Part shown: positions 1 through 17,461 of the stretch, piece by piece
Numbering within the stretch: position 1 is the stretch's first letter
How the letters are laid out: every line of letters starts with the position of its first letter
Notes under the pieces: generated by a model
Told to the model about the DNA's origin: nothing
The model's input: the letters and a program-made list of their open reading frames with translations, nothing else
Databases searched by the model: none
Translations under genes and position numbers: made by a program
Assembly: GCA_918026815.1 (NCBI GenBank)
Contig: CAKJVC010000115.1
Location: forward strand, 1-64,000
DNA length: 64,000 nt
Direction of reading: 5' to 3'
Source of the DNA: Chalara sp. BL73
Lineage: Eukaryota; Ascomycota; Leotiomycetes; Helotiales

Positions 1-790
1 TTGGTCTTCTGTCCAGTGATCGATATTAACTGCCCGGGTTTTCAGGTCGTTACATAATAGAACTGGAGGCAAGAAGAAATAACCTCCATGGCTGCGTGGT
101 GAAATTTTAGGCTGATCCTCCAAAGATAGAATTCGTACAAGCAAGTTTGGAAGCCGTACGTGGAGGGTAGGTTATGCGAAGAAACGGCGATTTCGGTCTG
201 GCTCCATTTTTCGATTTTGTTATAGTATTAAGTGGAAGATAGTTTTGAAGTCAAGTCCCAACGAGAATGTTTTGGTGAACAAAAGGTCAGGAGAAGGAGC
301 ACGACAACTTCTTACTGAAACTTTGTCCAAGTTTCAGCTTGATCAACAACTCAAGCTCAATTGCGTGTATGGGTATATAGATATTCACAATGCAGCATAT
401 GCAGCCACCGGAACTCAGAAGATTTTTATACCCCATTGGTATCTTAGTCACGTGGATGGCTTCTATTGATGGGTCATCAAGGCACATAATATACAGATAG
501 CTCGAATATGTAATTTTGCACTACTACTCGTCTTACCATCTGCACAGGGGAGAATTTACGGCCCGGAGGAGTGGAGCTATCAAGGCCCGGAAATCCACCA
601 CTGGTAAGCTGACTAAGTATCCACTGACTTGCCCGACACAAAACATGTTGGGCTACCGGAGGAACTGTGTGGCCAGATGTGAGGAATCTATGAAAGGTAG
701 TGCCCTAGTATCATTGCATTAGTTTAGAACCAGAACAAAATAAAATCTCAGAGCTAGAAATTATTTCTGTTATAAGAACGTGATTTGAAG
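1..790. other. Intergenic, no supported gene
   Basis: Only short ORFs under 75 codons are present, none with family-like composition. I see no repeat, tRNA or splice-consistent gene here. The stretch lies downstream of the NTF2-like gene that reads leftwards. Confidence 0.5.
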
Positions 791-1264
791 CTAGTCATTT
801 CTCGTGTTATTTGTATCGCCACTCTTCGCCTTATCCCTTCCTTCTTGCCTTTTCAGCCACCTCTCATATATACCTTTCTGAAGAGCCGAGTCCGTATACT
901 CAAATAGCTCTGCTAATTTTCCGGTCTCATCAAAGTGATACCTCATCATGTAATCCATCTGATACCGTTCTCCATCTACCAGGACACCTTCCTCAGAACA
1001 CCAGGCGATGGCAGATCTTTTCTGCTCATCTTCCCAATACTGCTGGATGGTCGCTTTCCATTGCACATAGTTCTGCCCGACAAACCCGGTCGTGAGATCC
1101 TCGTGCCATTGTTCTCTTGTCTGTGGTTGCACCTCCATGGACTGTGGGTACAGGTGTTTGACAAAGTTGGCGGCGAAGTCCGCGGGTGAGAGAAAAGTTT
1201 CAAAATCCCAATTGTTTAAAGCAGCTAGAGAAACTATTTTAGCGTGCTCATCTGAATATCTCAT
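791..1264 (-). CDS. NTF2/SnoaL-like small protein
   Basis: A single-exon ORF of 157 residues. The pattern of an aromatic-rich N-terminal helix (NNWDFETFLSP near residues 17-27), a central Trp/Tyr region, a middle strand ending in IAWCSEEG, then YQMDYMMRYHFDETGKLAEL and a final EYTDS is what one sees in the NTF2-like/SnoaL fold. That fold serves as cyclase, dehydratase or epimerase domains, or non-enzymatic binding modules, in fungal metabolite clusters. This assignment rests on recognition of the pattern, not on a search. The gene is convergent with nothing close by and about 300 bp from the UstYa-like gene on the same strand, so it could be a tailoring enzyme of the same cluster. No signal peptide or membrane segment is visible, so a cytosolic location is expected. 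An upstream exon cannot be excluded. Confidence 0.65.
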   Translation of the reverse strand: MRYSDEHAKIVSLAALNNWDFETFLSPADFAANFVKHLYPQSMEVQPQTREQWHEDLTTGFVGQNYVQWKATIQQYWEDEQKRSAIAWCSEEGVLVDGERYQMDYMMRYHFDETGKLAELFEYTDSALQKGIYERWLKRQEGRDKAKSGDTNNTRND

Positions 1265-1559
1265 AGACCCAAGGGACGATGCGTACCGAAACTTTTCTCG
1301 ATAAAATCTTTATATTTGTAGCTTGTTTTGGCTTGAGAGTCTGCCATACTTTGAGATTGAGTTCTAGAAGTGGGAATAGAATTGATATTCTTAGCGAAGG
1401 TATGTTGCCAGATCATGTCTTTAAATACCTAATTTCTTGTCAGCCAGAGTAAGCTAGCCAGGGCAATCCAAATCCTTTATCACATGACCCAAGCACCGGG
1501 CTTGGTTACATGTGTATGCATATATACACGGACTGATGTAAACAGTGTTTTGCTCTTAT

Positions 1560-2539
1560 TCATTTATTCTGAAGAAACGCAGTGGAGCGCCCGTGTTTAA
1601 AGACAGTCGAATATGAATCACGTGTATATGTTTTCAATTTCAATCCTCGAGTTACATTGTGCAATGGCATGGAATAAACTACATTGAGACAGGATCTTTT
1701 TCTCAAAACTTTCTGCATCGCCTCTTGCAAGTTCCTCTTCCGGTGTTGGCAATAGAATTGCCCCAGGGGCGGCGTCATTGTGTTCAACAGATGCGACTCA
1801 ACCCATGCGTTCTTATCCTGCCACTCCAAAATGGCATCGTGATTCACACACTTCCTTTGTACCCTGAAGTCCGCCCATGGGCGGTGATTCTCCTCTACCC
1901 AGGCGTCGGTAAAAATACCTATGCTAGGCTGGCAGGTCAAGGCTTGGAGCAGCGCTTGAAAACAGTGGCTAAGGTGAGATTGCTCGAGAAATGGCATATT
2001 AAGCGTGCTGATGTTGGCCCCAAGGAAAGGAGCGTAGTAGTGGGGAAAATAGGTAAATTTACGGATAGTGTTCAGACAGTGCAGGTGATGTTGGCTTTCA
2101 AGTCGAGCAAGATAAGCCTCACTACCATGCCCCCATTCTTTTGGTGCTCGCACAGCCTCCAAAGGATCTCTTCCCAGCCGTTCAACATCTTGTTTAGAAA
2201 TCGTGAAGGTTTTCATTTTCGCTACGTGCTCCCATGCTTCATCTACGGCATGAGATGGTAGGTCGCGGAATATCGAACTGGGATTATTGAACACCGGCGT
2301 ATCTGTCACCATATATCTGAAGGGAAGCTCTAGTCGCTCCAGGAGGGGTGCTTAGCATGTTACGTTAGCGAAAAATGTCATAGAATAAATCGTTTGTTTA
2401 TAGACTTACAGAAAGTGTTGACTTCCTTCAGTGCTTCGTTTGCTGATGGTGTCTTTGCTCTGTTAAGATAGGCGCTTCCGACGGAGAATGAAACTAAGAA
2501 GAGAATGATATTCAGCAGTATGCTGATTCGCAGCCACAT
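1560..2539 (-). CDS. UstYa-family (DUF3328) oxidase-like protein, apparently intact
   Basis: Two exons, 2411-2539 and 1560-2350, with a 59-nt intron (GTAAGT..CTAAG) joining TTC T to CA in frame; the product is about 306 residues. The first exon gives a short N-terminus and one membrane helix (ISILLNIILFLVSFSVG). The second carries both diagnostic HxxHC motifs: HHLHC, followed by LNTIRK and an aromatic stretch, and HLSHC about 55 residues later. These His/Cys motifs define UstYa-type proteins, which catalyse oxidative cyclisation of ribosomal peptides (ustiloxin, asperipin-2a, phomopsin) and some other oxidations in the secretory pathway. The gene lies 1.3 kb from a Kex2-repeat precursor on the opposite strand, a typical pairing. 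Only one Met opens the first exon, but in-frame codons continue upstream to a TAG, so a small 5' exon is possible. The last 60 residues beyond the WQDKN segment are unusual and could hide a missed 3' intron. Confidence 0.85.
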
Positions 2540-3806
2540 TGACCTCCTGCTTTGCTTTATTCTAAATGCTTCTTGTGCCTACATCCCATTAATTGTCACC
2601 TCTTGAAAAGTTTAGAGTCATTTTACCATGGCTCCTTCCCTCCCTCCGTCATCTGATTGTTTAAGCTCCCCATACCTTCTTGGTTCCGTGAAACGTTTCC
2701 ACAGCCTTTCCATCTTTTACTAAAATCGGTTGGAAATCCAAGAGTCGAATTATGAAACTATTGAAGAGCTCTTCGCAAACTTTGAAATCCACAGATTACT
2801 TAAGGAGAGTTACTGATAGTTGACATTAGCAATCATGTAATGGGAGATGGTGAGAATGACTGGGATTCTGAATGTTCCAGGGGCCACGCACACTTAACCT
2901 TGTAGCGGTGAACCGGAACAAACTTTGTTCAGCCACTAAAAATAAGAATTCTGAGATTAATCATTAGTGATTCGTGGTTTTGTCTTCTGCCTTGAATAGG
3001 TTCGGGAACTTGGCATTAGCTCTGAACCCCTGTGGTGGCCGTAAATCATCTGTCCACCTTATTCGTTTGGTTGACTTCCTATTTAGGCTCTGGGCTTCAA
3101 TGCAGAGATTTGCAGCTGATCTGATCGGATGCTAAAGGTCAGCTGGATAATATTTTTGGCGTATATCTAAACTGAACAGGGACCCAAGTACATGTTGTTG
3201 TTTTTTTTTTTTTGGATATACAGTTTGTGATGGCTCGTAAGACGCATTGCAGAGTCTAGCGCGTTCCTCCTGTTACTCTAGCCAATTAAATTAGTCACTT
3301 AAGTGGTGTGTATTTATTAATGATGACCTGAGTGAGAGATCCATGTCTGTTTGAACATAAACAAGGATTATAGTTATGTAACCTGCGAGTTCCGAGCTTG
3401 TCATAGCTTCCATGATGCACTGTAGACTTTAATGCGCCCTTCTTGGGCCGAGAACTTTTGTACAGCTCAGGTAATAATGTGTGAATACTACACAGCTATG
3501 GATTTGGCGAATTAGAGCTCATTTGATTCAGAAGGGATATGCATGCCTACCGGAATGGGGCAAGAAACCACGAACGGCAGGAATATTTACCCCAAACGAA
3601 GCATTCAATACTAACTGGGAAAAAAATTACGTGCAATGGGTACACGTGTCTGGGAAATGATGAGTGGTTCTTTTACATGTGACTCTCTAGGATCTCATAT
3701 TATATATAGCTGCAACCTGCTGCTTGAGAACGTAGCCACGGTTTCAAACCTAACACATTCAATTATCTTCACATTTTCCACACATTCAAAACTTTGACTT
3801 TATATC
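2540..3806. other. Divergent intergenic region between UstYa-like gene and precursor
   Basis: About 1.27 kb with no credible ORF. It holds a run of about 15 T near 3200 and is likely to contain the promoters of both flanking genes, which are transcribed away from each other. A CACGTG E-box-like core lies near 3643. Confidence 0.6.
3701..3709 (+). promoter_or_regulatory. Probable TATA box of the peptide precursor
   Basis: TATATATAG lies about 100 nt upstream of the precursor ATG, followed by a pyrimidine/CA-rich leader (ACACATTC, CACATTTTCC). The spacing is normal for a strongly expressed fungal secreted-peptide gene. Function is inferred from position only. Confidence 0.5.
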
Positions 3807-4193
3807 ATGCATTTCTCCAAGATTACCACAATCGTCTCCTTCCTCGCGGCTACAGCTCTTGCTGCTCCTCTAACCCGTAGGTTCATAGCTGTACTCCTAC
3901 ATTTGATGTATTTTTCTAATTATCCCAAAGCAAATGGCAACATGGCACAGAGAGATGAATTGGTTGTGGAGCCTGCTGCTTCTTGGGCTGCTGCAAAGCG
4001 GGAGGAGGTAGCTGCTGAACCTGCTGCTTCTTGGGCTGCGGCAAAGCGGGAGGAGGTCGCTGTTGAACCTGCTGCTTCTTGGGCGGCAGCAAAGCGGGAG
4101 GAGGTCGCTGCTGAACCTGCTGCTTCTTGGGCTGCGGCAAAGCGGGAGGAGGTCGCTGCTGAGCCTGCCGCTGCCTGGGGCGTGGCCAAGTGA
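3807..4193 (+). CDS. Secreted Kex2-repeat peptide precursor (candidate RiPP/dikaritin precursor)
   Basis: Two exons are proposed, 3807-3876 and 3931-4193, giving 110 residues. The 54-nt intron (GTAGGT..TTCTAAT..AAAG) is a multiple of three, so the unspliced frame is also open (128 residues). The N-terminus MHFSKITTIVSFLAATALAA is a clear signal peptide. The mature part is five tandem units of 16 residues of the type EEVAAEPAASWAAAKR. Each is separated by Lys-Arg, the cleavage site of Golgi kexin; the last unit is diverged and ends in a single Lys and stop. Glu-Pro and Trp are invariant, and A/V and S/A vary. This architecture (signal peptide, repeats, KR sites) is that of UstA, PhomA and AprA precursors and of other kexin-processed repeat proteins. 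UstYa-like genes flank it on both sides. The likely core is the Trp-containing end of each unit, by analogy with the aromatic residues cross-linked in known members. The alternative is a non-modified secreted repeat peptide. It is not an alpha-pheromone, since no Cys-containing pheromone core is present. Confidence 0.82.
   Translation: MHFSKITTIVSFLAATALAAPLTRRFIAVLLHLMYFSNYPKANGNMAQRDELVVEPAASWAAAKREEVAAEPAASWAAAKREEVAVEPAASWAAAKREEVAAEPAASWAAAKREEVAAEPAAAWGVAK
3954..4193 (+). repeat. Five tandem 48-bp units encoding the putative core peptides
   Basis: Units begin at 3954, 4002, 4050, 4098 and 4146. The central units differ mostly at third positions (for example GCT/GCG/GCA Ala codons) and at one Ala/Val codon, so the protein repeat is held more strictly than the DNA. 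The first unit starts with Asp-Glu-Leu-Val-Val, and the last ends AAAWGVAK before the stop. Confidence 0.95.
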
Positions 4194-6018
4194 TCTTCAG
4201 AACTGGAGGCTTTCAGATGTAATTGCTCTAGAATCTGTCAAACATGTCATGGAATTTAAATAGCGGGCAATGGCCATCTGAGGGGGTGTGCATAGAGAGG
4301 TGGCAAACAGTTATCTGGTGGATAATGACCATGACGTTAGATGACAAGAGATTACGTTCATTGCAACTGATATCCACTCTATTACACTGCAATTCCACCT
4401 TTCGAAAATTTTCAAACCTGGTAGCATATGTAAGATCAAAACGGAAGGTTAACAGAAACACTTAAGACTAACACGTTTGCTGAATCAAGCGTTCTGTTCA
4501 ACATGACCACAAATATAGGGGTTACCATCTGCTACAAAGTAGAGAATAACGGATTTAGTTGATGATACTGCATGGCCAAGTGTAATAATTTCCCATGGTT
4601 GTTTGTGTGGCAGACACCCACTCATTTTAGGAGGGATTGTAGCATTTCACATTTCACATCTACTCCATCTTTGCGGAATTGGGCGGAATCAACGTGGGCT
4701 TTTCACACGTCAGAAATTAGACCAAAAACATGCCGGAAGGCGTGGAGCACCCTAGCCTTGCTTCACATATCTAGTATCATGCGTGGTAATAAAGATATCT
4801 ATGCCCGAACGTTCGTCATACCGGCTCATTACAAGGTTTATTATGTATGCGAACAATTGTTTGGTGCAAAACTTAGGCGGTGTAAGAAAATTAGGCGATA
4901 CTAAGTCTAGCTAAGTAAGGTAAATGTAGTCATAATAGTTGGTAATAGCCAAGCCCAGTCATCAGTGCTATACAGACCAGCCTACAAATTATAGGTTCTA
5001 TTTACTCACTGAAAAGATATCTACTACGATATTTACAGCTGCCCCTGGTCCACTTTATTTGATTGCGGATCTTTTGTCAAGAACGTTTTGTGAAAATGTA
5101 CCGTGCATCGGACGAATTCCTTATCCTGTTCAAAATGGAGCTTAAAACTGTAGAGTTGTCTTCTCTAGATTGCATTTTATGAGCTAGTGATGTGTGTAAG
5201 AAAGCCTCCTTTCTTTAGACAAGAGAAGGGAAAGTTAGTGTCACTTCAAACATCATTTAGGTTCACCCTGTTGTAACCTGCCGGATTGGGGCCGAATGCT
5301 TGTCTCGTAAGCGAACTGCACTCCTGAATCAAGAGAGAGCACGGGCCAACTCTTGGGTGTGCTCCACAATGCGAACACCTGCGGCCACCGCTGTTGAGCG
5401 CAACGGAGAATTGCTTGACAAGGGGATCTGTAATGCTTGTTAATCCCTGCACTAGAGCTGCGGTTCTCGATAAGTAGGCCGTATTATGTACTACACATCA
5501 CAATGGTCAGCACCAGGCTCCTGGCTTCAAAAGCAAAATGCCTTCCTGCTTACGGCTATTATCGATCTTACGTCAGAACGCCGCCGCCACAAGGGTCGCG
5601 GCTCGCCTCTGCGATTTTTAAGTCCATTTTTGTTGCTGGGGGCTTGAATATCGCACAATCCTGCACGATGCTTAGTTTGCAAAGAATTCCAACTCAGGTG
5701 TCGGAATTAAGTCAAGAGTGCATTAGGAGAAGAAAGCAAAAAGTAAAGTCAAAATAAAGATTAGCTTTGAGGCTGTTTATCTAGCATCTTATATCCCTTT
5801 GAATTACAGCCATGGTTCTTATACAGTCAACTAGACAACACAAAAGATTAAGCATTTCAGATATTGCAGTGGAGGTATAATTTGGCGAAGCCTGTAAATT
5901 CATTTCCTAACGAATAATCCGTTTTCCTACTAGGTTGTCATCCACCTTCCAACTCATCTATGCTATTTCTCCCTTTGTATCTTGATGTCTAGGTTTGTCC
6001 CTACGCTTTCGAATACCA
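4194..6018. other. Intergenic, AT-rich, no supported gene
   Basis: About 1.8 kb. ORFs of 66-110 codons occur (for example 4572-4904 on +), but their composition is unlike protein and they have no splice-consistent extensions. A GC-richer patch at about 5270-5430 stands out from its surroundings and could be a gene remnant, but I cannot assign it. Confidence 0.5.
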
Positions 6019-7689
6019 TTACAATCCAATCTCCGTAAACAGTAATTGCAAGTTCCTTGCACATTCAACACCAAATAGTTTGCGGATGATGTCCACCCAT
6101 TCCATTTTTGTTTCCGAAGAAGGGCAAGTAGAGACATTATCACCTAATCCTGGACGCGCAACCGACATCACTGGAAGTTCAGGGGTTGGGTCATGGAGAT
6201 ACAAATTGGAGCCGGTCTGGTTCTTGTTGATGAAAACTGACCGAGACATGTACATTTCAATCAATGTTGGATCTGAAAAGCTAAATGGAGCCTGCCGAAT
6301 TTTCTTCAACAATTTCTGGGCTCTTGAGTAGATGCGGCGCTCTGCGCCGTCGTCGATACTGATCAGCAAACGGCGAGGCCTTGGGTGGCTGCCGAGATTG
6401 CCTAAAAGTGCTGGCCTAATAACCTGGAAAACATAGAAAAGATAGCCAAGTTCTCTGAAGTTCTGTGGCTGCTCCTTGGGGAGTAGAAGATTGTAGAAAT
6501 CTTGCCAAGCTCTATCTCCTTGATCTAAAAGATTTTGCAGAACCTGCCCTAGTGAAGGACGTCTTCCATCAAGTAGTGCTTCGCGGATGGAAGAGGAAAC
6601 CAAGCTATCTCGTGGTGACACCTGAATTTTATAGAATGAATTGTATAGACCTGCAATCCCGCGTCGGTCAAGTTCATAGGAGATGGCTTTCTCAAAAACC
6701 CAAGATATTTGTGTAGAGCGAAGCTCAACAGCCTCCATCCATCGTAGAGCTTGGTCCGTATTACACAATCCCCGTTCGAGCTGTTCATCCACTGAGTGAA
6801 AATAGTGGAAGCTTGGAACATCCAAGCTGATCCGCATGGGAGGGATGCATTCTAACCTTCGTCTATTCTGAAAACCTCCTATTTTTGAAATGATGGTAGA
6901 TGCTATATCAGCGATAGCAGAGGAGGAGCGGGCAATATATTCTGCTTCATATAGGGTCGGCTTTAAGTAAAGGAGCTTTTTTATGCTTGTTTCATGGCTT
7001 CCGCGCAGACTATCGCGTAGTATCTTTGCAGAGAAAAGGCATACACCAGAAAGTATTTCCACCTGCTCGAACGTGGACTTGTCATTCTCTAGGAAAAGAG
7101 TGTCCTCAATTTTCAGACTTGGGCAGGAAAAATGCAGGTGCTGCGTCGACTTGAATTGTGCCTTCCTTCCAAGAATCGATGGAACTGGAAATTGAAAGTC
7201 GATGTCCTGGTAAGAGCTTATGCCCTCAAGATCTTTTGCGCGGCCATCACATGGTGGCCCACCAACGAGTGCTCTTTCAGTGACGCGCAAATAAGAAGTA
7301 TCTGGGCGTGCTTTCTCTATCACTTCCCTGCGAAGCGAGTCCATTTGCACCTTTCTATTGAGCAAATGTACTACTTTTGTCGCGGCTTTTTTGCCCTTCA
7401 AATATGCCTTCTTATGTATTCCATCTAGATTGTAGTGCTGATCATAAATACTACGTCGTAGTAATGCTTCAGAAATGGTATGGAAACCATATATATTATG
7501 AAGCAGATCATCATGTTCTGAGAAGTTGATGCTTTGAAAGCTGATGGATGATGGAAGGCCGTCTTGATTGTGAAGGTCCGCAACTTGCATAGGAGAACTC
7601 ATCCTAAACATAATCATCACAAGAACCAGAAACAGAAAGATTTTCACTGTAGAAGGCGATATAGAAACACCTAAGTAAAAGTCTTCCAC
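6019..7689 (-). CDS. Unrecognised 556-aa protein with N-terminal membrane anchor
   Basis: A long uninterrupted single-exon ORF, which in this AT-rich region argues strongly for a selected gene. Residues about 14-30 (TVKIFLFLVLVMIMF) form one hydrophobic helix after a short N-terminus, so a type II membrane or secreted topology is likely. The rest is soluble and mixed alpha/beta in composition, with Lys/Arg-rich segments around residues 90-130, a Leu-rich segment near 370-410 and a C-terminal WVDIIRKLFGVE stretch. I recognise no domain and no catalytic motif. It lies between the peptide precursor and the P450. With its membrane anchor, it may act in the secretory pathway on the same peptide, but that is inference from position only. 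Start chosen at the first Met, immediately before the anchor. Confidence 0.6.
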   Translation of the reverse strand: MEDFYLGVSISPSTVKIFLFLVLVMIMFRMSSPMQVADLHNQDGLPSSISFQSINFSEHDDLLHNIYGFHTISEALLRRSIYDQHYNLDGIHKKAYLKGKKAATKVVHLLNRKVQMDSLRREVIEKARPDTSYLRVTERALVGGPPCDGRAKDLEGISSYQDIDFQFPVPSILGRKAQFKSTQHLHFSCPSLKIEDTLFLENDKSTFEQVEILSGVCLFSAKILRDSLRGSHETSIKKLLYLKPTLYEAEYIARSSSAIADIASTIISKIGGFQNRRRLECIPPMRISLDVPSFHYFHSVDEQLERGLCNTDQALRWMEAVELRSTQISWVFEKAISYELDRRGIAGLYNSFYKIQVSPRDSLVSSSIREALLDGRRPSLGQVLQNLLDQGDRAWQDFYNLLLPKEQPQNFRELGYLFYVFQVIRPALLGNLGSHPRPRRLLISIDDGAERRIYSRAQKLLKKIRQAPFSFSDPTLIEMYMSRSVFINKNQTGSNLYLHDPTPELPVMSVARPGLGDNVSTCPSSETKMEWVDIIRKLFGVECARNLQLLFTEIGL

Positions 7690-9483
7690 GGTGCGGCTAC
7701 AACAGCTGGTGCACCTAAAACATAAAAGTATTAGATTAATCTAATTTATTGACTGAAATGACTGGCCATCAGTGAAGAAGCACTTTACATGGTTATACAG
7801 AAGAGTGAAATTCGTAATTTCCTAATTGCGGGGAAACATATTTTCAACTCCACAGGTTATCATGCCGCACATACGTGAAAAAAAAGTATTTGCTATTCTC
7901 AGAATGTCTAACAGGGGTGGCAACGGTAATGTATTAGGCATCACATGGGTCTTTTCCTATACAGCCCTTAAACCTTGTAGCGTGGTCACACTAAGAGTGG
8001 AGCACAGCGCCTCGACGTCGGCCACAAACGGGAGAAAATAAAGAACTCGGAAGGATGTGGAAAGAAACTGATAATAACTAACATTTTGGTTCCTTGTTGT
8101 AATGACGCATGTTTGAAAAGGATGACTCTTGTCTATGCAGAGTAGTTGTCTAAGCACAAAACCTAAACTTTGATATCCGATGCCTAATGATCCACTAAGT
8201 ATTGATTTATATCTTATTTTACGCTGTGTAACGAGCATGGTAAGCCTTCATGACCATACGCTTAAAACGCAGAAATAATTTATACAATTTTTCTTTTAAA
8301 TTAAATCAAGTTTAAATTGGCCAAATAAAGGCTCTAAAACGATATTTGTTTGGCGTTTGTTAGTGGCTAAAAGACAATACTATGGCGGATACAGGAAGGT
8401 CAGCGCCAGGAAACTTAAGTCCAGGGAGGCCAGCGCCAGAAAAATCAGCACAGAAAGCTTACCGCTAAGCAAGCCAGCAAAGAAAGTAAATGGAGAGTTG
8501 CTTTGATTTTATTTAAATGGTTTATAAGTTAGTAGCTTATTTCCGTTTGTTATCCAATAAAAATTCATCAAATGACTAATTTTGCAATTTAAGTGCATTT
8601 TTAGTTATGTCATATGGTACAAAGTGGGTAGCGAGATAAGGGTGGGAATAGAATGGGAACAGGAATAAGGCGGGAAAGCCACAGCAGCCAAGATCTCGCT
8701 TAACCTAATAATTAATTTAGAGTCGAGGTCAAACACTAAAAAGAGGCTAAAAGCTTACTGTATCTCATATGTCTAGTTTCGTTTAGGATTTTCATTTTGG
8801 AAAGGTAGTTCATCAGCATAAAAGGATTTTCCCTGTTTCTTCCTACCTTCCACTATTGGTTAATGATCCAAACCACTCCTGCTTTTCCAATAGATGGCTA
8901 CCGTAATTAGTACCTTCTAGTATTGAGTAGTTGTTGTGGGGTTGGCGTAAGCTGCTGCGGCAAGAATGCGCGGCGACCTATCATCAACTTGAGAATATGA
9001 GATGTGAGTTCGTAATGCATGGTTTCTACTACTTACAGCAAATTAAATGTCCATTCGCAAGGCTTGGAAACCCCTAGCGTGGGCGATACAGCCTACCGTC
9101 ATCCAGAATATCCGTATAATTAGTTTCACGCAGGGGCAGTTTTAACTTCAATCTGCTGCGACAGCGACTTTCGGAGACCACTCTGAAAACTGTTAATATG
9201 TCCGGAGCGGTTTGGGAGCCACTCTCGCGTTGACTGGGTCTTATGCAGAAAAAGCATCACTAAACATTAGCGCGAGAGAAAACGGACAATATCAGCGTTG
9301 GCGGCGTTTATCTATCGGACTTTCAAACTAACGACAGACAACACAGTAATCACTTAGTCATAGCATTAGATCCGTATCTTCTGCTCTATGGAGTCACATT
9401 ACTAGATTTTTGTGGTACTCTACTATAGTTGGAAACTCATAACTCAATTTTATCTGCTACATTTCAAAGCTGTTATTCCAATA
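7690..9483. other. Intergenic, AT-rich, between membrane protein and P450
   Basis: About 1.8 kb with no supported gene. At 8396-8470 there is a short imperfect repetition of a purine-rich motif (GTCAGCGCCAGGAAA, GGCCAGCGCCAGAAA). The 300 bp before 9484 probably hold the P450 promoter. Confidence 0.5.
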
Positions 9484-11561
9484 ATGATGCCTTTACCCGC
9501 GATATCTTCTCTAGCTGTGGCATTGCTCATGCTGGTTGCTACTCTTGTAGTTTATCGTCTACTTGTAATAATCTATAGACTATACCTGCATCCTTTGAGC
9601 AGATTTCCTGGCCCAAAAAGAGCTGCCGCTACAACACTTTATCGTGCATACTATCAGGTATATTGGGATGGAGGTCACGTGGAACAGTTCACAAAATTAC
9701 ACGCGCGATATGGTGATTCACCTTTGGCTAGGCTCATTATATAAGAATGACTTTTTTTAACAAGTCTTAAAGGACCGGTAGTGCGAGTCTCACCAAACAA
9801 GGTAGGAACCTCTCCCGTGAAATCTCTGCTAAAAGACGTCTTTAACCTTCTACAAGTTACATTTTCGCAGGCCGAAAGCTTTCGAAGATATATTCAAGTT
9901 CAACACAAAGTTTATCAAGGATCCAGATTTCTATGATCACCTCGGCCAGTCTGAGGCGCTCTTCGGAATGGTGGATGAAAATGAGCACAAGGAGCGATTC
10001 AAACTGGTCTCAGATCTATTTTCTAAAAGAAAATCCCAAGAGTTTGAACAAGTTATACTCCGCAACGTATGTTGGCTCCTATTCTTCGAGTTTATTCCTC
10101 AGATTTTCCCTAGAGATCTCACTGACTGCTATAGACGAACCTATTATGCGGCCTTCTTCTGAAGTCTACCAATCAAGGTTTGCCAATTAATATTGCACAG
10201 GGACTTCGGGCTGTGGTACTTGATATAGCCCAAGATTTCGTCTTTGACAATGTCCCTGACCACTTACGCGGCTTATATGATGAAAGGTTTGATACTTTGT
10301 TCGTACATACTACATTCGATGTAATGGACTGGACAGCTTGGTGCTTCAGGAACTTCCCGCTTACTCTCGCATTTTCAAATCAGCTGCCACAATGGTTGCG
10401 GCGAATAATCTTTCCAGGCGAAGCTGCCAATATAGAATCTTTTGAGGTTTGTTATATTTCTCTTACAGTTCTTAACTAGATCTTGAGCATTATATAGAAA
10501 CATACTAAGGCTGTTGGTGTAGACTATACAGCAACTGGTTAAGGGTAATGTTTCCAAGGGACCCAATTGGAGTCGCGACAGTCTTTTGAGTCGAATGGCT
10601 AATAAAGTTTCGACTCCTCAACTGACTGCAGAATGCATGGGGACAATGTTTGGTGCAGTCATAAATTTGGCCAACATGCTGCCCTATGGAGTATTCTATG
10701 TCTGTGAAACTGAATTCTTGCAGGAGAGAGTATATAACGAGCTCATGTCAATTTGGGAAAAGCCAGACGACGAAATACCGAGCTACTCTCTTCTAGTGAG
10801 GTTGCCTCTGTTGGTAAGTTGAGTGTATGAGATAAAATTTGTGCATTTTTTTTACCATAAACAAGGTCGTTTGTTAATGTAAAACAGAATGGTATAGTTA
10901 AAGAAAGCCTCCGTCTCATGCACGGGATTATTATTGGACCACCTCGTGTCACACCTCCAGAAGGAGCTACCATTGATGGCTACTATGTACCCCCCAATGT
11001 TAGTTATTTAGAAATACACCTGCTTATTATGTTAAATAATACTAAATTTCTTCAACAGACTGTTGTTACAACCTCCTCTTATTACTCTCACATGAATCCT
11101 GATGTCTTTCCGGAACCTGAAAGGTTCAATCCTGAACGCTGGCAAAGCTCCACACTGGAAATGGAAAGGTCATTGGTTCCATTCTCAAAAGGGAAAAGAA
11201 TGTGTCCTGGAAAAGAGTTTGTTCTTCGCCCTTTATGATCTAGTTCGGTTTGTATTGTATTTACTAATAATAAATGTCGTTTCTTTAGAATTTCGCTCAT
11301 GGAGCTATTTATCATCTTCGCGGCTCTCTTTAGAAGGTTCAATATACAGGTATTTAATACTACGTGAGTAGCAGTTCCTGCATTAAAAATAGAGAACTGT
11401 TTTTCTGATATATGTATAGTGAAAGAGATTTTGAATGGAAGGTTTATATATCATTGCATTTCAAAGGGAAGTTACTCCATGCTCATATGAAGCCGCGGCC
11501 GGAGTTCTCAGGCACTAGTAGTCGATTCTCTGGACTTCAAAAGATGGTATCTCAATTTTGA
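9484..11561 (+). CDS. Cytochrome P450 monooxygenase
   Basis: Nine exons restore one continuous frame of 518 residues: 9484-9712, 9773-9801, 9857-10066, 10135-10446, 10523-10813, 10888-10998, 11059-11216, 11289-11363, 11420-11561. All introns have GT..AG ends and phases agree. Residues 1-35 are a membrane anchor, followed by the proline-rich hinge HPLSRFPGPK. ESLR at about 363-366 is the K-helix ExxR, FPEPERFNPERW is the PERF region, and FSKGKRMCPG is the heme loop with ligand Cys about 443. The N-terminal block (YGPVVRVSPNK, then LHFRRPKAFEDIFKF) resembles trichodiene-oxygenase-type fungal P450s. The I-helix (about 300-313, GTMFGAVINLANML) lacks the usual acid-Thr pair, which may mean unusual chemistry. 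It is an ER-membrane enzyme and probably a tailoring step of the neighbouring cluster. Several ORF fragments look broken unless these introns are removed; after splicing I see no lesion. Confidence 0.88.
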
Positions 11562-12048
11562 GAATATTTTAATTGCTTAATTGGAAAATTGGTTGCTCTA
11601 ACAATATGTGTTGTCAAATTAAAGACGTAGAAAATAAAGCTACCAGCCTTTTAAAAAACTATTATTTTTTCACATAATGCTCAAATTTAAGCCTTGGAGA
11701 ATTTCCTTACACTCAGAAATTGATTGTGATAGGTACAATATGGTGCCTTTAACACTTAATGTTTCAAGCTTATGGGTGCGATTCCAAAGATTGTCATTGA
11801 ACACTATTTTAAAACCATTGTTTTGCTTGACTGAGTTAAGTAACTCTTCTTTTATGAAGCAAATTACGTGGTCTACATGGAGTTACTAGTCACAGAGCGA
11901 GATTTTCGAGGATTTTGCACCAAAACATATATCTTAGAACTGATCTATTGTATATAACTAAGTCTATCTAGTCCCCATGATATATTCTGTACAATCAGTT
12001 TTGAATAAGACTTGCAGATATATTTCAGCGTTTTGATTCTCTATAATT
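11562..12048. other. Intergenic, AT-rich
   Basis: About 490 bp between the convergent P450 and the UstYa-like pseudogene. It probably holds both 3' ends. No ORF worth calling. Confidence 0.5.
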
Positions 12049-12901
12049 CTAATCCTTGATTGAAATATGGGTCATATTGCGTGGAGGATTGTGGTTCTTT
12101 TGAGCCCAGTCCAACACGGCATTTGGATCTTTGCACTGATGAGGAATATGGCATCCATCAACTTGCACCCGAGCCCTATCACCCTCAGCCACTGCCCATT
12201 CGACTGTCAGGTCTGCGTTGCGCTATATGGCTTAGATTAAATACAAAATACAGTAGTGAGGGTGATAGTTTTCGATTTGCCTCATAACAAGTTCTTGTCG
12301 AGCCTTTTCGTCGACCTGGTTACGGATCGCATTGACGAGCGTCCGATAATTCTTTCTCAAAACCGCGTTTCTAGTGTTAATTTCTTGGATATATGTATGT
12401 CTCAAACTAATCACAACGCAATGTAACTGGTGATACATTGAAAGCAAAAAACCATCATTACCAGTGGGAGTATTAATGCCCGGGAGGAGATTGTAATCTT
12501 CTGGCTTCTCTGTTCGCACAAAACCCTCTCCAACTGTTATTATTATTAGTAAAGTTACAAAATTAAAGCTATGCCAATACTTTCCTGGGGCTCGAGAATC
12601 CCAATAATCTTGATTTTGTTCCGTTGGCGGATCGAAGAGTGGCTTGATCTCTTCAAAAACTACTGGGTTTAGTGGCACTAACAGGCAGTATCAGTACCTC
12701 TTCATTAGCCAAGTCATAATAATAGGAATTACTTAGGGGTGGAAATTGTTTAAATTTGGAGGTCGTAGATATTAGCCTAGCTTGAAAAGCCCAATTACAG
12801 ATAGCAGCCAGACATGCCCACAATGCCAAACAGTAGATATACAAAGTTGGTACAACGGCCGTTCCTCTGGTTCTTCTGTTTGCGTATGTACTCTCTTCCA
12901 T
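12049..12901 (-). pseudogene. UstYa-family gene broken by nonsense changes
   Basis: A second DUF3328 homologue. The first coding block starts at 12901 with a Lys/Arg/Thr-rich N-terminus, a membrane helix (LYIYCLALWACLAAICNWAF) and a linker. The second runs down from about 12660 with the ENQDYWDS-type segment, the first motif HQLHC and a second-motif region reading HPHYC, where His at position four is Tyr. Directly after it two in-frame stops (TAA, TAG) interrupt the conserved helix. Downstream the same frame resumes family-like sequence (NADLTVEW, then HQCKDPNAVLDWAQK) to a TAG at 12049. His-to-Tyr (CAC to TAC) and Gln-to-stop (CAA to TAA, CAG to TAG) are all explained by C-to-T at CpA, the RIP signature. 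An intron covering the stops would be only 29 nt, too short. The intron after WDSRAPG would be 47 nt and shift the frame, a further possible lesion. Probably non-functional. Confidence 0.75.
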
Positions 12902-13782
12902 ATCATTCGAATGTCATTCGAACTCCGCGGACTTAGAATATCTGTCAATCAGGGAAGCAGGTTACAGCTGTTTTTGGACAATGTAAAATGCCAGTCAATT
13001 ATCATGCAAGATGACTGTAAGATTTAAGCGCCATCTCCTAGTATTTTTGCATATGGAGTTATACCATCTTCGGTAAGTGTTCCCGACCAAAGTATTCCCC
13101 TAGCTTACATGTGGGTATCCTCCATATCTCGGTGAAAGCACAAGCACTAAAATATGGGGCCGGCCCGCCACCCCGCAGTCCTGCAATTAATAAGTTGTCC
13201 ACTTTAAAGATAAACGTTCGCAATCCTTGTAACTGTGTGGGAACATATGAGACTAGTGGATCTATACACCAGCCTCGTGTCTTACTTAGGTAGGAGACTT
13301 TGTGAAAGGTGAAACCAGGAAAGCTAGAATGAAAAGGGCAATACTTTCTGTCTAAGGATACGGTAAATGATCACCATATTTGGGCCGTTGATGATTTGAT
13401 ATAGTAGTTTTGCATGACGCTAAATATCAATCACTGCTAATTCCGAGAACGTATTCTGGCAAATGTCGAGGCCACCTTTAGTGGAAAGTGTATATTCATT
13501 ACACAAACGAGGTGGCAAATTGCCGTTATAGAATGCTGTCGCTTGTGCAAGGCAACTTTTATCAGATGACGTGTATCAAAATAACACTAAATTATACCGA
13601 TATCAACTTGATTTTGAGCCCTTTCATGAAATACTGTAAACACGGTTGATCCGTAAATTTTCATGCAATATCAATTTTGTAATAGACTGTATCTCTACAG
13701 CTACAAGCGTAATCAGAAAGAACGTGAAGTTGACCCTTCTCCTCCCCTTCGTTCCATTTTCCCATGTAAAAATGTGCAACGC
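12902..13782. other. Intergenic, AT-rich
   Basis: About 880 bp. Short ORFs on the + strand at 12782-13293 are not convincing. The region contains the 5' flank of the UstYa-like pseudogene and the 3' flank of the MFS gene. Confidence 0.5.
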
Positions 13783-15608
13783 TTAAAGTTTGGTTCTTAG
13801 CAAAGCAGGTTTACCACCAAGCCATAAGAACGAAGCTGCTGCTGAAAGGCTTGCCAGAAGGGCAAGTATGGTGTTCATATTTCCGTATCCGAGTCTGTTG
13901 TAAATTAGTATGCAGAAGTCATTGTCCGAGCTCGATATATCATTTCAGTCTCAAACTTACTTGTCTCTAAGATGACCAGCGATAAGTGGTCCAAATGTCA
14001 TTCCCAAATTGAATACCATGAGGTTCATTCCAGAGATTGATGCAAAGGGACCGTTTTCCCCAAAGAGATCCGGATTATGCTCATGGTACTCCTTAATAAC
14101 CATCCTTGCCTCTACAAAACTAGGTGTACCGACCATCGCCATGCCTATACCAGAGAGCGCGAGCAATATACAGTATAAAGCAATGTTAATATCCCGTGGC
14201 TCCGGCTTGATTACACGAAAGAATGCCAAGACGAAGGATAGGAACATGTATCCACCTGTGGCTACAACCTTTATACCAAAACGGTCCACAGCCCATCCTC
14301 CCAGCGGAGCAAGGGCGAGTCTAAAGCATCCTAAGGGGACAAAGAGGAGGCCAGTTTTGACTGGATTGAAATCGAACAATTCTCGCGCCTCGAGAGAGAC
14401 CGTAGCGTCAAAGGAACTTAAGATCGCCGACTGAATTCCACAGGTGACAAGCGCTGCCACTAGTGACGAGTTGCGAAGGCATAAGAGAACAGGTAAATGA
14501 TTTAGGATGGAGGATTCTCGATGCGTGATATGGTAATCATTTGGCTCATCCCCGCAATTGAAGATAGGTAAACTTCCCACCTGTGATTCTATATCTCCAA
14601 GCTCGATTTCTTCATTGTGGTGAAGCATCGGGCTGACTTCATCTTGTGTCGCCTCATCCCACAACTCCGAACTGTCATCTTCTACCACCTCCGCACCCTG
14701 ACTATGCTCTTTCTTTCCGCTTGTCAGTAGAGATGAGCTATCACTAGATGTCTCTGGATTCATTTGGTCTGCCAAGGCAAAACCATCCGAAATATAACGG
14801 GCAGCTACCTTTTTCTCAATAAGCAGCAACCGCATAATTAGATCAAAGGCCAGAAGTCCCATTGCAATTGTAGCAACAGCGGGTAGACCGGCAAGGCTAT
14901 ATACGGTCCCACCGAGCGGCGGGGAGAATAGGGCTCCCAGGTTGACGAAACCAAGAACCTGCATCATTTTTAGTTTATAGTCCTTCTATGTATGACAGAG
15001 CATTTGAATCTAAAGAAAATTAATAGATTTGCTGTTCTTTGGCCTTACCATTCCCAGAGTTTTTCCAGTGTTTTCTGATCCTACTGTATCAAAGCATAAG
15101 GCAAATCCGGCTGTCCAAATGAACGCACAGCTTGCCCCTTGAGCACACCTCGCGATTACCAGAGCAGTCATTGATTGACCCAAGAAAAAAAGAACGGTGG
15201 ACTGTTGATATCAGTATAGACGCCAGGTGTCATCATTGTTCTAAACCTTACAATAATCAATATCACCAATCCGGCAATGAATAGCAGCTTTCTCGAAGCG
15301 AGTTTGTCTCCCAGCGCGCCTGTGATGGGACAGAAAATGACAGAAGAACCAGCATAGGCTGCGAGAAGTATTGAGGAATGGCTCTGAAGTTCATCCTGAG
15401 AAATCCCTATGCGATCTTGCAAAATAAATGGCAGGACAGGAATAACGATTCCGTAGAGAAATGTCTCACTAAAGAGGCCGACAATCACAGTGCTCACAAT
15501 GAACAAAGTGTGAGAACGCCAGCGGATACCTTGAGGTTCTACTACGTAGTGGCTTTCCTCGTTCACGTCTGATCTCAAATTTCGTGGAAGTGATTTCAGA
15601 TTCTTCAT
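13783..15608 (-). CDS. MFS transporter, DHA1/vesicular-amine-like family
   Basis: Four exons, 15252-15608, 15049-15201, 13961-14958 and 13783-13894, keep one frame of 539 residues. The N-terminal half has the first helix TLFIVSTVIVGLFSETFLYG, the DHA motif-A loop GALGDKLASRK (about residues 97-107), the arginine helix LVIARCAQG and motif C (GFVNLGALFSPPLGG). A long acidic cytoplasmic loop of about 95 residues (Ser/Asp/Glu-rich) joins it to the second half of six helices, which ends GYGNMNTILALLASLSAA. This is the 12-helix drug:H+ antiporter layout related to vesicular amine transporters, used in fungi for metabolite or drug export. The start at 15608 is the Met nearest the first helix; an in-frame Met at 15641 is possible. 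It shares a 529-bp upstream region with the dioxygenase, which suggests coregulation. Likely job: export of the cluster product. Confidence 0.88.
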
Positions 15609-16137
15609 TTTTGCGGCAAATATGGCTGCCCAGATACACAAAGGAAACAGAGTTGCTTCAGAAATTTCCTGTCCGTTGATAACGCTGAATGAGGTAAACT
15701 ATACCTTGTCAAAATTCTTGCCGCTTCTTAAGTACCGAATTGGGAATATTTAGGAAAACAAGGATTTGTCAACTATCGACAAATTACAGCTAGCATCTTG
15801 AATAAATGCTTGCATTTTTAAGCGAGGCTCTAGAATTTCCCGCTCTTCGCCGCTAGGTTAAACGCTAGTGATCGCAGATGCATAAGCTTACTCATCCTAA
15901 CTCCCTGCATGTAGGGCCATATATGGACAATGTGATATTGATTCCTAAATTCTCTAGCTATAAAAGACGCATATTTAGTGTGTCAGTGCAGCTCCACTTC
16001 ACTAGATACACGCTTTCGATTAATTTGCGCATCTTGAGGCTTGGGTATATATGTAACGTTTTATAGAGGTATAGAAATGATCACAACCGTTCGTTATTAC
16101 ACAATTACCTACGCTATCTGTTTACATTCAATCTATT
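15609..16137. promoter_or_regulatory. Bidirectional promoter region, MFS transporter / dioxygenase
   Basis: 529 bp separates two divergently transcribed starts, so it must carry both promoters. Near the dioxygenase start there is a TATATGTAA-like element at about 16047 and a CAAT/pyrimidine-rich leader. No regulator site can be named with confidence. Confidence 0.55.
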
Positions 16138-17279
16138 ATGCCATCTGCAGTTCGGTCAACGAATGCGCCTGCGCCTTACGAGGAACCAGCCGACATCCCT
16201 GTAATTGATTTCAGCTTGCTCCATGGTACACCTGAGCAACGTCAGGCTGCTTTGAAGCTACTGGACGAGAGTTTCCAATCTCATGGGTTTATCTACCTTT
16301 CAAACCACACTATTGATCAGAAGATAGTCGATCAAGCCTTCGAATGGGTAATTAGGGATTATGAATGTGATATTGTTTATCATAGTATGGACTGACCTGT
16401 ATACAGTCTAAACGATTTTTCAGGCTTCCTCATCATGTGAAGCAAATGATTGCACATCCTCCAAGTGGCGAAGTTGGTGACCATCGAGGATTTGCGGAGG
16501 TTGGCCTTGCATTAGTTAGTCAATTGGTTTTTGATCGAAATGAAGTAGAAGAGCTACGCAAAACGGCACCGGAGACCAAGGAAACACTTGAATGGGGCAA
16601 CCCTTTAGATGACACAGCTCCAAACCGTTGGCTATCCGAAGATGTCTTCCCTGGGTTCCGTGATTTTATGGAATTATGGTGGAGCGAATGTGTTCGCCTC
16701 GAGCATGCCTTGTTACGTTGCCTTTCTTTGGCCTTGGACCTTTCCGATCCCGATTATCTCTCCAAGAATCAGACTCGCGATATATGCCATATGAGCTTGG
16801 CATATTATCCTTCAATGCCTGTTATACCTTTGAAAAACCGCCAGCTACGCCGTCTAAACGCGCACACCGACTTTGGTCAATTAACACTGCTCTTTCAGGA
16901 CATGGTAGGCGGTCTTGAGGTACATGATGGTCACGTCTTCCGACCTGTGATACCAAAACCAGGGACAGTTGTCATCAACGTGGGGGATATGTTAGAGAGA
17001 CAGACGAATGGGAGATGGAAAAGTGCGTTGCATCAAGTTGCAGCTCCAAGAGAATTTATGCAGAGGCCAGATGCCGAAATACATGAAGATGGAAATGGTG
17101 ATAGAGTTGTAGATAGATTCTCTATTATCTTCTTTGGCACACCTGACCCAGACTCTTTGGTAGACACTCTTCCAGGCTGCGAAAAAAGGGGAAATTGGAA
17201 GCCAAACATGATTGGAGAATGGGGTGAGAAATTGACCGCAGGCGATTGGATTCAGAAGAGACTTGCTGCAGAGTACTAG
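16138..17279 (+). CDS. 2-oxoglutarate/Fe(II)-dependent dioxygenase (isopenicillin N synthase-like)
   Basis: Two exons (16138-16347, 16407-17279) joined at FEW/SKRFF in phase give 360 residues. The N-terminal DIOX_N-type block is IPVIDFSLL..LDESFQSHGFIYLSNHTI. The C-terminal double-stranded beta-helix carries the iron ligands HTD (His about 223, Asp about 225) and His about 279 (ALHQVAAP), followed by the 2-oxoglutarate-binding RFS (Arg about 307, Ser about 309). All required residues are present, so it should be active, in the cytosol. Fungal members hydroxylate, desaturate or epoxidise secondary metabolites. It is divergent from the transporter and near the P450, which makes a tailoring function plausible. 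The substrate cannot be told from sequence. Confidence 0.92.
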
Positions 17280-17461
17280 AAGTATAATTTAGAATTATAT
17301 TTACTGGTCTTTGGTTCACTTGATCCAATATGATCTAGGTACTTGCACAAAAAAGTCTGAGTATTTCAAAGCAAGTTAAGCTTAGGGATAGATATGATAA
17401 TAAATATATAACACCATGTCAACATAATACGACATGAAAAAAAGGTTTATCAGAGGAGCAG

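Follow-up and report, generated by a model that had tools for sequence, protein, structure and literature searches.

Do the biosynthetic genes crowded at one end of a fungal contig encode a single peptide pathway, or two kinds of peptide machinery that adjoin? The genes in question lie at positions 791-17279 of the first 64,000 nucleotides of contig C107 (C107:1-64000, hereafter the window, whose start is the contig end) in the 58.66-Mb, 199-contig assembly of Chalara sp. BL73. An earlier, sequence-only reading had taken all of them for one UstYa-type ribosomal peptide (dikaritin) cluster. Here, we identify the central gene, missed by that reading, as a member of the arginine-containing cyclodipeptide synthase (RCDPS) family, which corrects how the cluster is to be read. 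Gene families, motifs, repeats and gene order are observed directly throughout the region; from these we favor, at a probability of about 0.58, two adjoining modules that likely act separately, the predicted product of module A (repeat peptide and UstYa, 791-4193) being a copper-oxidised tryptophan peptide and that of module B (RCDPS and its neighbors, 6019-17279) an oxidised cyclo(Arg-Xaa). On their gene content, two known kinds of peptide machinery would stand side by side, and a joint pathway is possible.

A cyclodipeptide synthase family gene at the center

The central protein aligns with EshA, a protein named as an RCDPS, at 34% identity over 92% (E 1.7e-62), which joins it by homology to a fungal family described as the third subfamily of cyclodipeptide synthases (CDPSs) (PubMed Central (PMC) record PMC13062777). 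Every named protein among its 63 relatives is fungal, the nearest coming from Bisporella sp. PMI_857 (95% identity across residues 1-186, 87% across 286-510), and 65 of the 68 conserved columns are kept. Alike in sequence to EshA and its relatives, the window protein differs from them by a serine at position 455 and by the repeat-peptide module beside it. The sequence-only reading had entered this gene as an unknown membrane protein, a label that does not hold: the hydrophobic stretch (hydropathy 2.2) precedes the codon at which translation likely starts, and from Met7602 onwards the 19-residue hydropathy reaches at most 1.2.

The genome holds a single other RCDPS match, which is 5'-truncated and lies on contig C41. 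An apparent decayed copy at 6340-7380 of contig C42 (74% over 479 columns) was rejected, as C42 6335-6917 and everything from 7309 onwards is sequence shared with contigs C158 and C170; these contigs do not account for a short piece in between.

An RCDPS family member at the center would account for the neighboring cytochrome P450, 2-oxoglutarate (2OG) enzyme and exporter without any ribosomally synthesised and post-translationally modified peptide (RiPP). In the proposed route, a cytosolic RCDPS would take Arg-tRNA and a second aminoacyl-tRNA to form a diketopiperazine, the P450 and the 2OG enzyme would oxidise it, and the major facilitator superfamily (MFS) protein would export the oxidised product. 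For candidate RCDPS products, the calculated values are 320.172 for cyclo(Arg-Tyr), 343.188 for cyclo(Arg-Trp) and 254.161 for cyclo(Arg-Pro).

The repeat precursor and its UstYa neighbor

Module A makes a credible candidate for a new UstYa RiPP, with a repeat unusual in being Trp-only. Its precursor begins with a signal-peptide-like N-terminus (judged by eye and by hydropathy) and continues into five units of 16 residues (EEVAAEPAASWAAA-KR and variants), with four Lys-Arg (KR) pairs between them and a last unit that ends in K before the stop. This arrangement, a signal peptide and at least three repeats of 8 or more residues between KR, KK, RK or RR, defines a Kex2-processed repeat protein, and when the residues beyond position 24 were shuffled 20,000 times, at least four KR pairs appeared in 3 trials. 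The five KR-delimited repeats described by the sequence-only reading are thereby upheld. The likely intron keeps the reading frame whether spliced or not, and the DNA of the gene contains a 119-bp repeat at 91.6% identity. Trp is invariant in all five units and is the sole aromatic residue of each, while the spliced 111-residue protein contains zero Tyr and zero Cys. Pairwise codon differences among units (30 synonymous, 30 non-synonymous, with 0.26 expected to be synonymous under random changes in unit 2) show a synonymous excess that is suggestive only, the units not being independent. A query that differed at the exon junction found no precursor homologue at E 0.1 among 7994 word-sharing candidates scored from about 5.8 billion proteins.

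The adjacent UstYa (DUF3328) enzyme combines a PF11807 match with the HxxHC(x)nHxxHC signature of the family (HHLHC at residue 131, HLSHC at residue 169) and has a hydrophobic N-terminal helix. A second, UstYa-like gene further right is a relic: its open 152-residue piece alone scores 14.1 bits to PF11807 (cut-off 25), and a genome scan that reads through stops, here a TAG and a TAA, scores it at 47.5 bits. One intact and one broken UstYa gene, as first described, are thus confirmed. Near-identical copies aside, the best paralogue of the intact gene in the genome reaches 36% over 199 residues (contig C172), and a 46-residue piece reaches 44% (C8). The family is expanded in this genome, with 89 exon-level matches on 34 contigs (hand count), one match falling below the cut-off.

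In the predicted sequence of events, the precursor would enter the secretory pathway, and Kex2 would cleave behind every KR, freeing 14-residue units (EEVAAEPAASWAAA and variants) that would then be trimmed. Membrane-anchored UstYa, holding copper through HxxHC(x)nHxxHC, would oxidise the peptide, most likely at Trp, each unit's sole aromatic residue. Calculated [M+H]+ values of the unmodified units are 1372.638 for EEVAAEPAASWAAA, 1400.669 for EEVAVEPAASWAAA, 1428.701 for DELVVEPAASWAAA and 647.315 for AASWAAA; a crosslink would shift these by -2.016 and a hydroxyl by +15.995.

Known systems provide a frame for this prediction. DUF3328 genes lie near 22% of 7878 repeat precursors, their counts being highest directly beside the precursor genes, and DUF3328-linked precursors contain Tyr in 65.6% and Trp in 20.5% of cases (PMC7329392). 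Like these Kex2 repeat proteins (Umemura 2020, PMC7329392), the window has a signal-like start, repeats and a DUF3328 neighbor; unlike them, its repeats are Tyr-free with Trp only, and an RCDPS gene lies nearby. Tyr is the residue used by the UstYa crosslinks of ustiloxin, asperipin-2a and phomopsin (PMC7329392). Whether such enzymes also act on Trp or aliphatic residues could be probed with the present pairing of a Trp-only repeat lacking Tyr and a UstYa gene that has both copper motifs. In the DUF3328 cyclochlorotine hydroxylase CctR, each monomer binds two copper ions through the HxxHC(x)nHxxHC motif, and replacing it with alanine abolishes activity (PMC12435403). The window UstYa shares the family, this motif and the N-terminal membrane helix with CctR, whose substrate is a non-ribosomal peptide, whereas the window enzyme neighbors a repeat precursor (PMC12435403).

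One pathway or two

The view that every gene tailors the repeat peptide in one dikaritin cluster draws on the adjoining precursor and UstYa genes, and the window shares with the ustiloxin, phomopsin and asperipin-2a clusters both a repeat precursor and a UstYa with two HxxHC motifs. The window is nevertheless not a textbook dikaritin cluster, because its repeats hold Trp but no Tyr, the ether-bond site in the cores of ustiloxin, phomopsin and asperipin, and no tyrosinase match is listed in it. A genome-wide listing, for which only the best candidates were scored, gives 39 tyrosinase matches; none of them falls in the window or on C41, and the closest listed on C107 is at position 101568. Furthermore, in a stretch cut off on its left by the contig end, there is one intact DUF3328 copy and one with in-frame stops in place of multiple DUF3328 proteins. 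The 2015 dikaritin definition requires a tyrosinase gene, and clusters missing a member of the required set have since been described (PMC12048977). Together with the RCDPS gene at the center, the absence of Tyr and of a listed tyrosinase match weakens the single-cluster view, which we regard as very improbable. The earlier assignment of a UstYa-type peptide cluster to 791-17279 is therefore well supported as far as 4193; its extension as a single dikaritin pathway to 17279 is not well supported, the promoter comparison below counting against it as well.

The same genome offers a contrast. At C184:102919-117021, a precursor with SWYYD repeats (DAEPEAAPSWYYDKKR repeats) is accompanied by tyrosinase matches at two loci (106.5-107.2 and 116.3-117.0 kb) and by several UstYa matches, a layout that looks like a textbook dikaritin cluster and a ready-made, Tyr-rich and tyrosinase-bearing counterpart to the window. 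Both loci have a repeat precursor beside UstYa, with SW in each C184 unit, but C184 alone has Tyr repeats and tyrosinase matches. Kinship of the two precursors was considered after a genome search gave E 3.2e-4; no homology is claimed, because the score of the aligned units was matched in 1572 of 5000 shuffles. Another repeat precursor (EAVYDNPKTATLPY units) lies beside a UstYa gene at C86:35645-36103 and identically at C60:495-953. A scan of 1601 open reading frames from 14 sources, among which the precursor region was represented by the window and not by its copies on C41 and C42, found repeat precursors at four of seven UstYa loci (window, C184, C86, C60) and at none of seven other sources, or at three of five independent UstYa loci, given that C86 and C60 are copies of each other and that C62 and C181, neither with a precursor, form another such pair. 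This tally is biased because C184 was fetched for a precursor hit.

A hybrid pathway, in which repeat peptide and RCDPS cyclodipeptide would be co-made and tailoring enzymes common to both would link or oxidise them, appears unlikely; its specific form, a copper-UstYa-oxidised Trp repeat peptide coupled or co-tailored with the RCDPS product into one Trp/Arg metabolite, is slightly less likely again. Two UstYa family genes flanking the RCDPS gene inside 16.5 kb speak for it, as does the sole other RCDPS match of the genome being the truncated one on C41. Against it, Bisporella has its close RCDPS relative, yet searches of deposited proteins found no UstYa or precursor relative, in Bisporella or in any other source, which favors separability. 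C41 and C42 likewise carry the left block without the P450 and 2OG genes, which suggests separability to the extent that these possibly chimeric contigs can be trusted. Additionally, the seven upstream stretches of 600 bp have no words in common above random sets and no common CGG-type palindrome: the best 7-mer occurs in 5 of 7 promoters (equalled by 119 of 200 random sets), the best 8-mer in 4 (91 of 200) and the best 9-mer in 3 (142 of 200). Random sets were drawn from coding and non-coding sequence alike at window positions 20001-63900; the stretch used for the MFS gene was displaced by 3 bases. The RCDPS is also expected to be cytosolic, whereas the UstYa domain, by analogy with CctR, would face the secretory lumen (PMC12435403). 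Among the open-licence PMC papers searched, none mentions UstYa together with cyclodipeptide; a single one mentions DUF3328 and cyclodipeptide synthase, in separate passages. If true, the hybrid would join mRNA-encoded precursor logic to a tRNA-diverting arginine cyclodipeptide synthase in a new kind of mixed peptide cluster.

Alternatively, the UstYa might tailor the RCDPS product, leaving the repeat protein as an unmodified secreted or mating peptide, which we consider improbable. Alpha-pheromones of Pezizomycotina contain Cys within a W-C...C core, and the Cys-free spliced precursor has no such core. Two alpha-pheromone patterns gave 0 hits and 1 hit in the genome (against 1 in a backward control), a result that is uninformative on pheromone identity and does not show the role to be taken by another gene. 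Pheromone precursors nearly all lack a DUF3328 neighbor, three excepted (PMC7329392), a further point against the mating role; CctR, acting on a non-ribosomal cyclic peptide, offers a precedent for the UstYa part of this explanation (PMC12435403).

Several observations weigh against two separate modules. The gap between them is 1.8 kb, and the UstYa-like relic sits within module B, so that UstYa genes lie on either side of the RCDPS gene. The absence from Bisporella rests on deposited proteins and shared five-residue words, small precursors are often unannotated, and the Bisporella RCDPS gene model is itself oddly spliced, which weakens its use for separation. The intact UstYa likewise found no relative at E 0.001 among 940 candidates in a search that needs shared five-residue words; given the large family, this silence indicates a short reach of the search. 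C41 and C42 each combine sequence from several loci, so that the contigs themselves may be chimeric. As for the product of module B, Ser455 replaces an Arg found in 43 of 44 relatives, so that RCDPS activity or specificity is uncertain. CDPS enzymes are expected to have a class-I aminoacyl-tRNA-synthetase-like fold. Foldseek alone, run with the window protein, ranked a lipase first and gave no match to an RCDPS at E <= 0.001. No solved CDPS was among the 50 matches listed in either of two structure comparisons, and an RCDPS profile run against solved-structure sequences gave one match, a viral envelope protein at E 0.74. The Bisporella protein, outside those 44 relatives, likewise has Ser at the position of window residue 455.

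Neighboring genes and copied stretches

Table 1. Positions of the genes and repeats discussed, in window coordinates.
Feature	Position	Strand	Details
Small NTF2/SnoaL-like protein (tentative), module A	791-1264	-	SnoaL_2 E 0.015, 16.3 bits (cut-off 27)
UstYa (DUF3328) enzyme	1560-2539 (exons 2410-2539 and 1560-2350)	-	PF11807 E 8.2e-42, 144 bits
Kex2-type repeat precursor	3807-4193	+	Likely GT-AG intron 3877-3930 (54 nt); 111 aa if spliced
Five 48-bp units	3954-4193	+	DELVVEPAASWAAAKR, EEVAAEPAASWAAAKR, EEVAVEPAASWAAAKR, EEVAAEPAASWAAAKR, EEVAAEPAAAWGVAK-stop
RCDPS family member	6019-7602	-	527 aa, open frame
Cytochrome P450	9484-11561	+	PF00067 E 2.2e-18 on a single exon; last exon and stop assigned by eye
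Broken UstYa-like relic	~12094-12690	-	In-frame stops; HPHYC as second copper motif
MFS transporter	13783-15608	-	PF07690 E 1e-14 and 5.8e-8 on two exons; ends placed by eye
2OG/Fe(II) dioxygenase	16138-17279	+	360 aa; intron 16348-16406; PF03171 E 1.2e-15; HTD motif

The P450, exporter and dioxygenase named by the sequence-only reading were all borne out by Pfam. In the P450, the FSKGKRMCPG haem loop and ExxR are intact, and canonical GT-AG introns carry the frame past the haem loop in a splice check. The best solved relative of the dioxygenase, which also has the HTD motif, is thymine dioxygenase (E 7.3e-28), and the protein resembles UcsF as well. For the small NTF2-like protein, the gene is present and the assignment is weak, with a SnoaL_2 score below the cut-off and a poor structure model (predicted local distance difference test, pLDDT, 52.7) unfit for fold search. 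Its protein is identical on C107, C41 and C42 and absent from the rest of the genome.

Near-identical copies of the left block lie on C41 (window 1-7217) and, in part, on C42 (1-6062), while window 7500-17300 is single-copy in the genome. C107 and C41 differ by 1 mismatch and 15 gaps over 7226 columns, C107 and C42 by 1 and 22 in 6063, and C41 and C42 by 0 and 26 in 6366. Because the copies differ almost only by indels, recent rearrangement and assembly chimera are indistinguishable as origins of these near-identical stretches, whose order of joining varies among C41, C42, C158, C170 and C13. C107 and C41 carry the same intact precursor gene, whereas the frame of the C42 copy is disturbed. The C107 and C41 UstYa copies are the same up to residue 238, after which their tails differ (the comparison stopped short of the stop codon, the window frame continuing to 1560). 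C41 1-7625 equals C13:159991-167605, the right parts of C41 and C42 are sequence of C158 and C170, and on both contigs the left block adjoins genes that, named by eye, include a PIG-V-like one.

Window 1-204, on the minus strand, holds the 5' end of a P-loop gene that looks by eye like a sulfotransferase and has no Pfam match; it is cut by the contig end, and its remainder lies on C41. Finally, a repeat of about 470 bp (L012, 9087-9558), which also matches itself inverted and has copies on C14, C119 and C9, may be a small transposable element.
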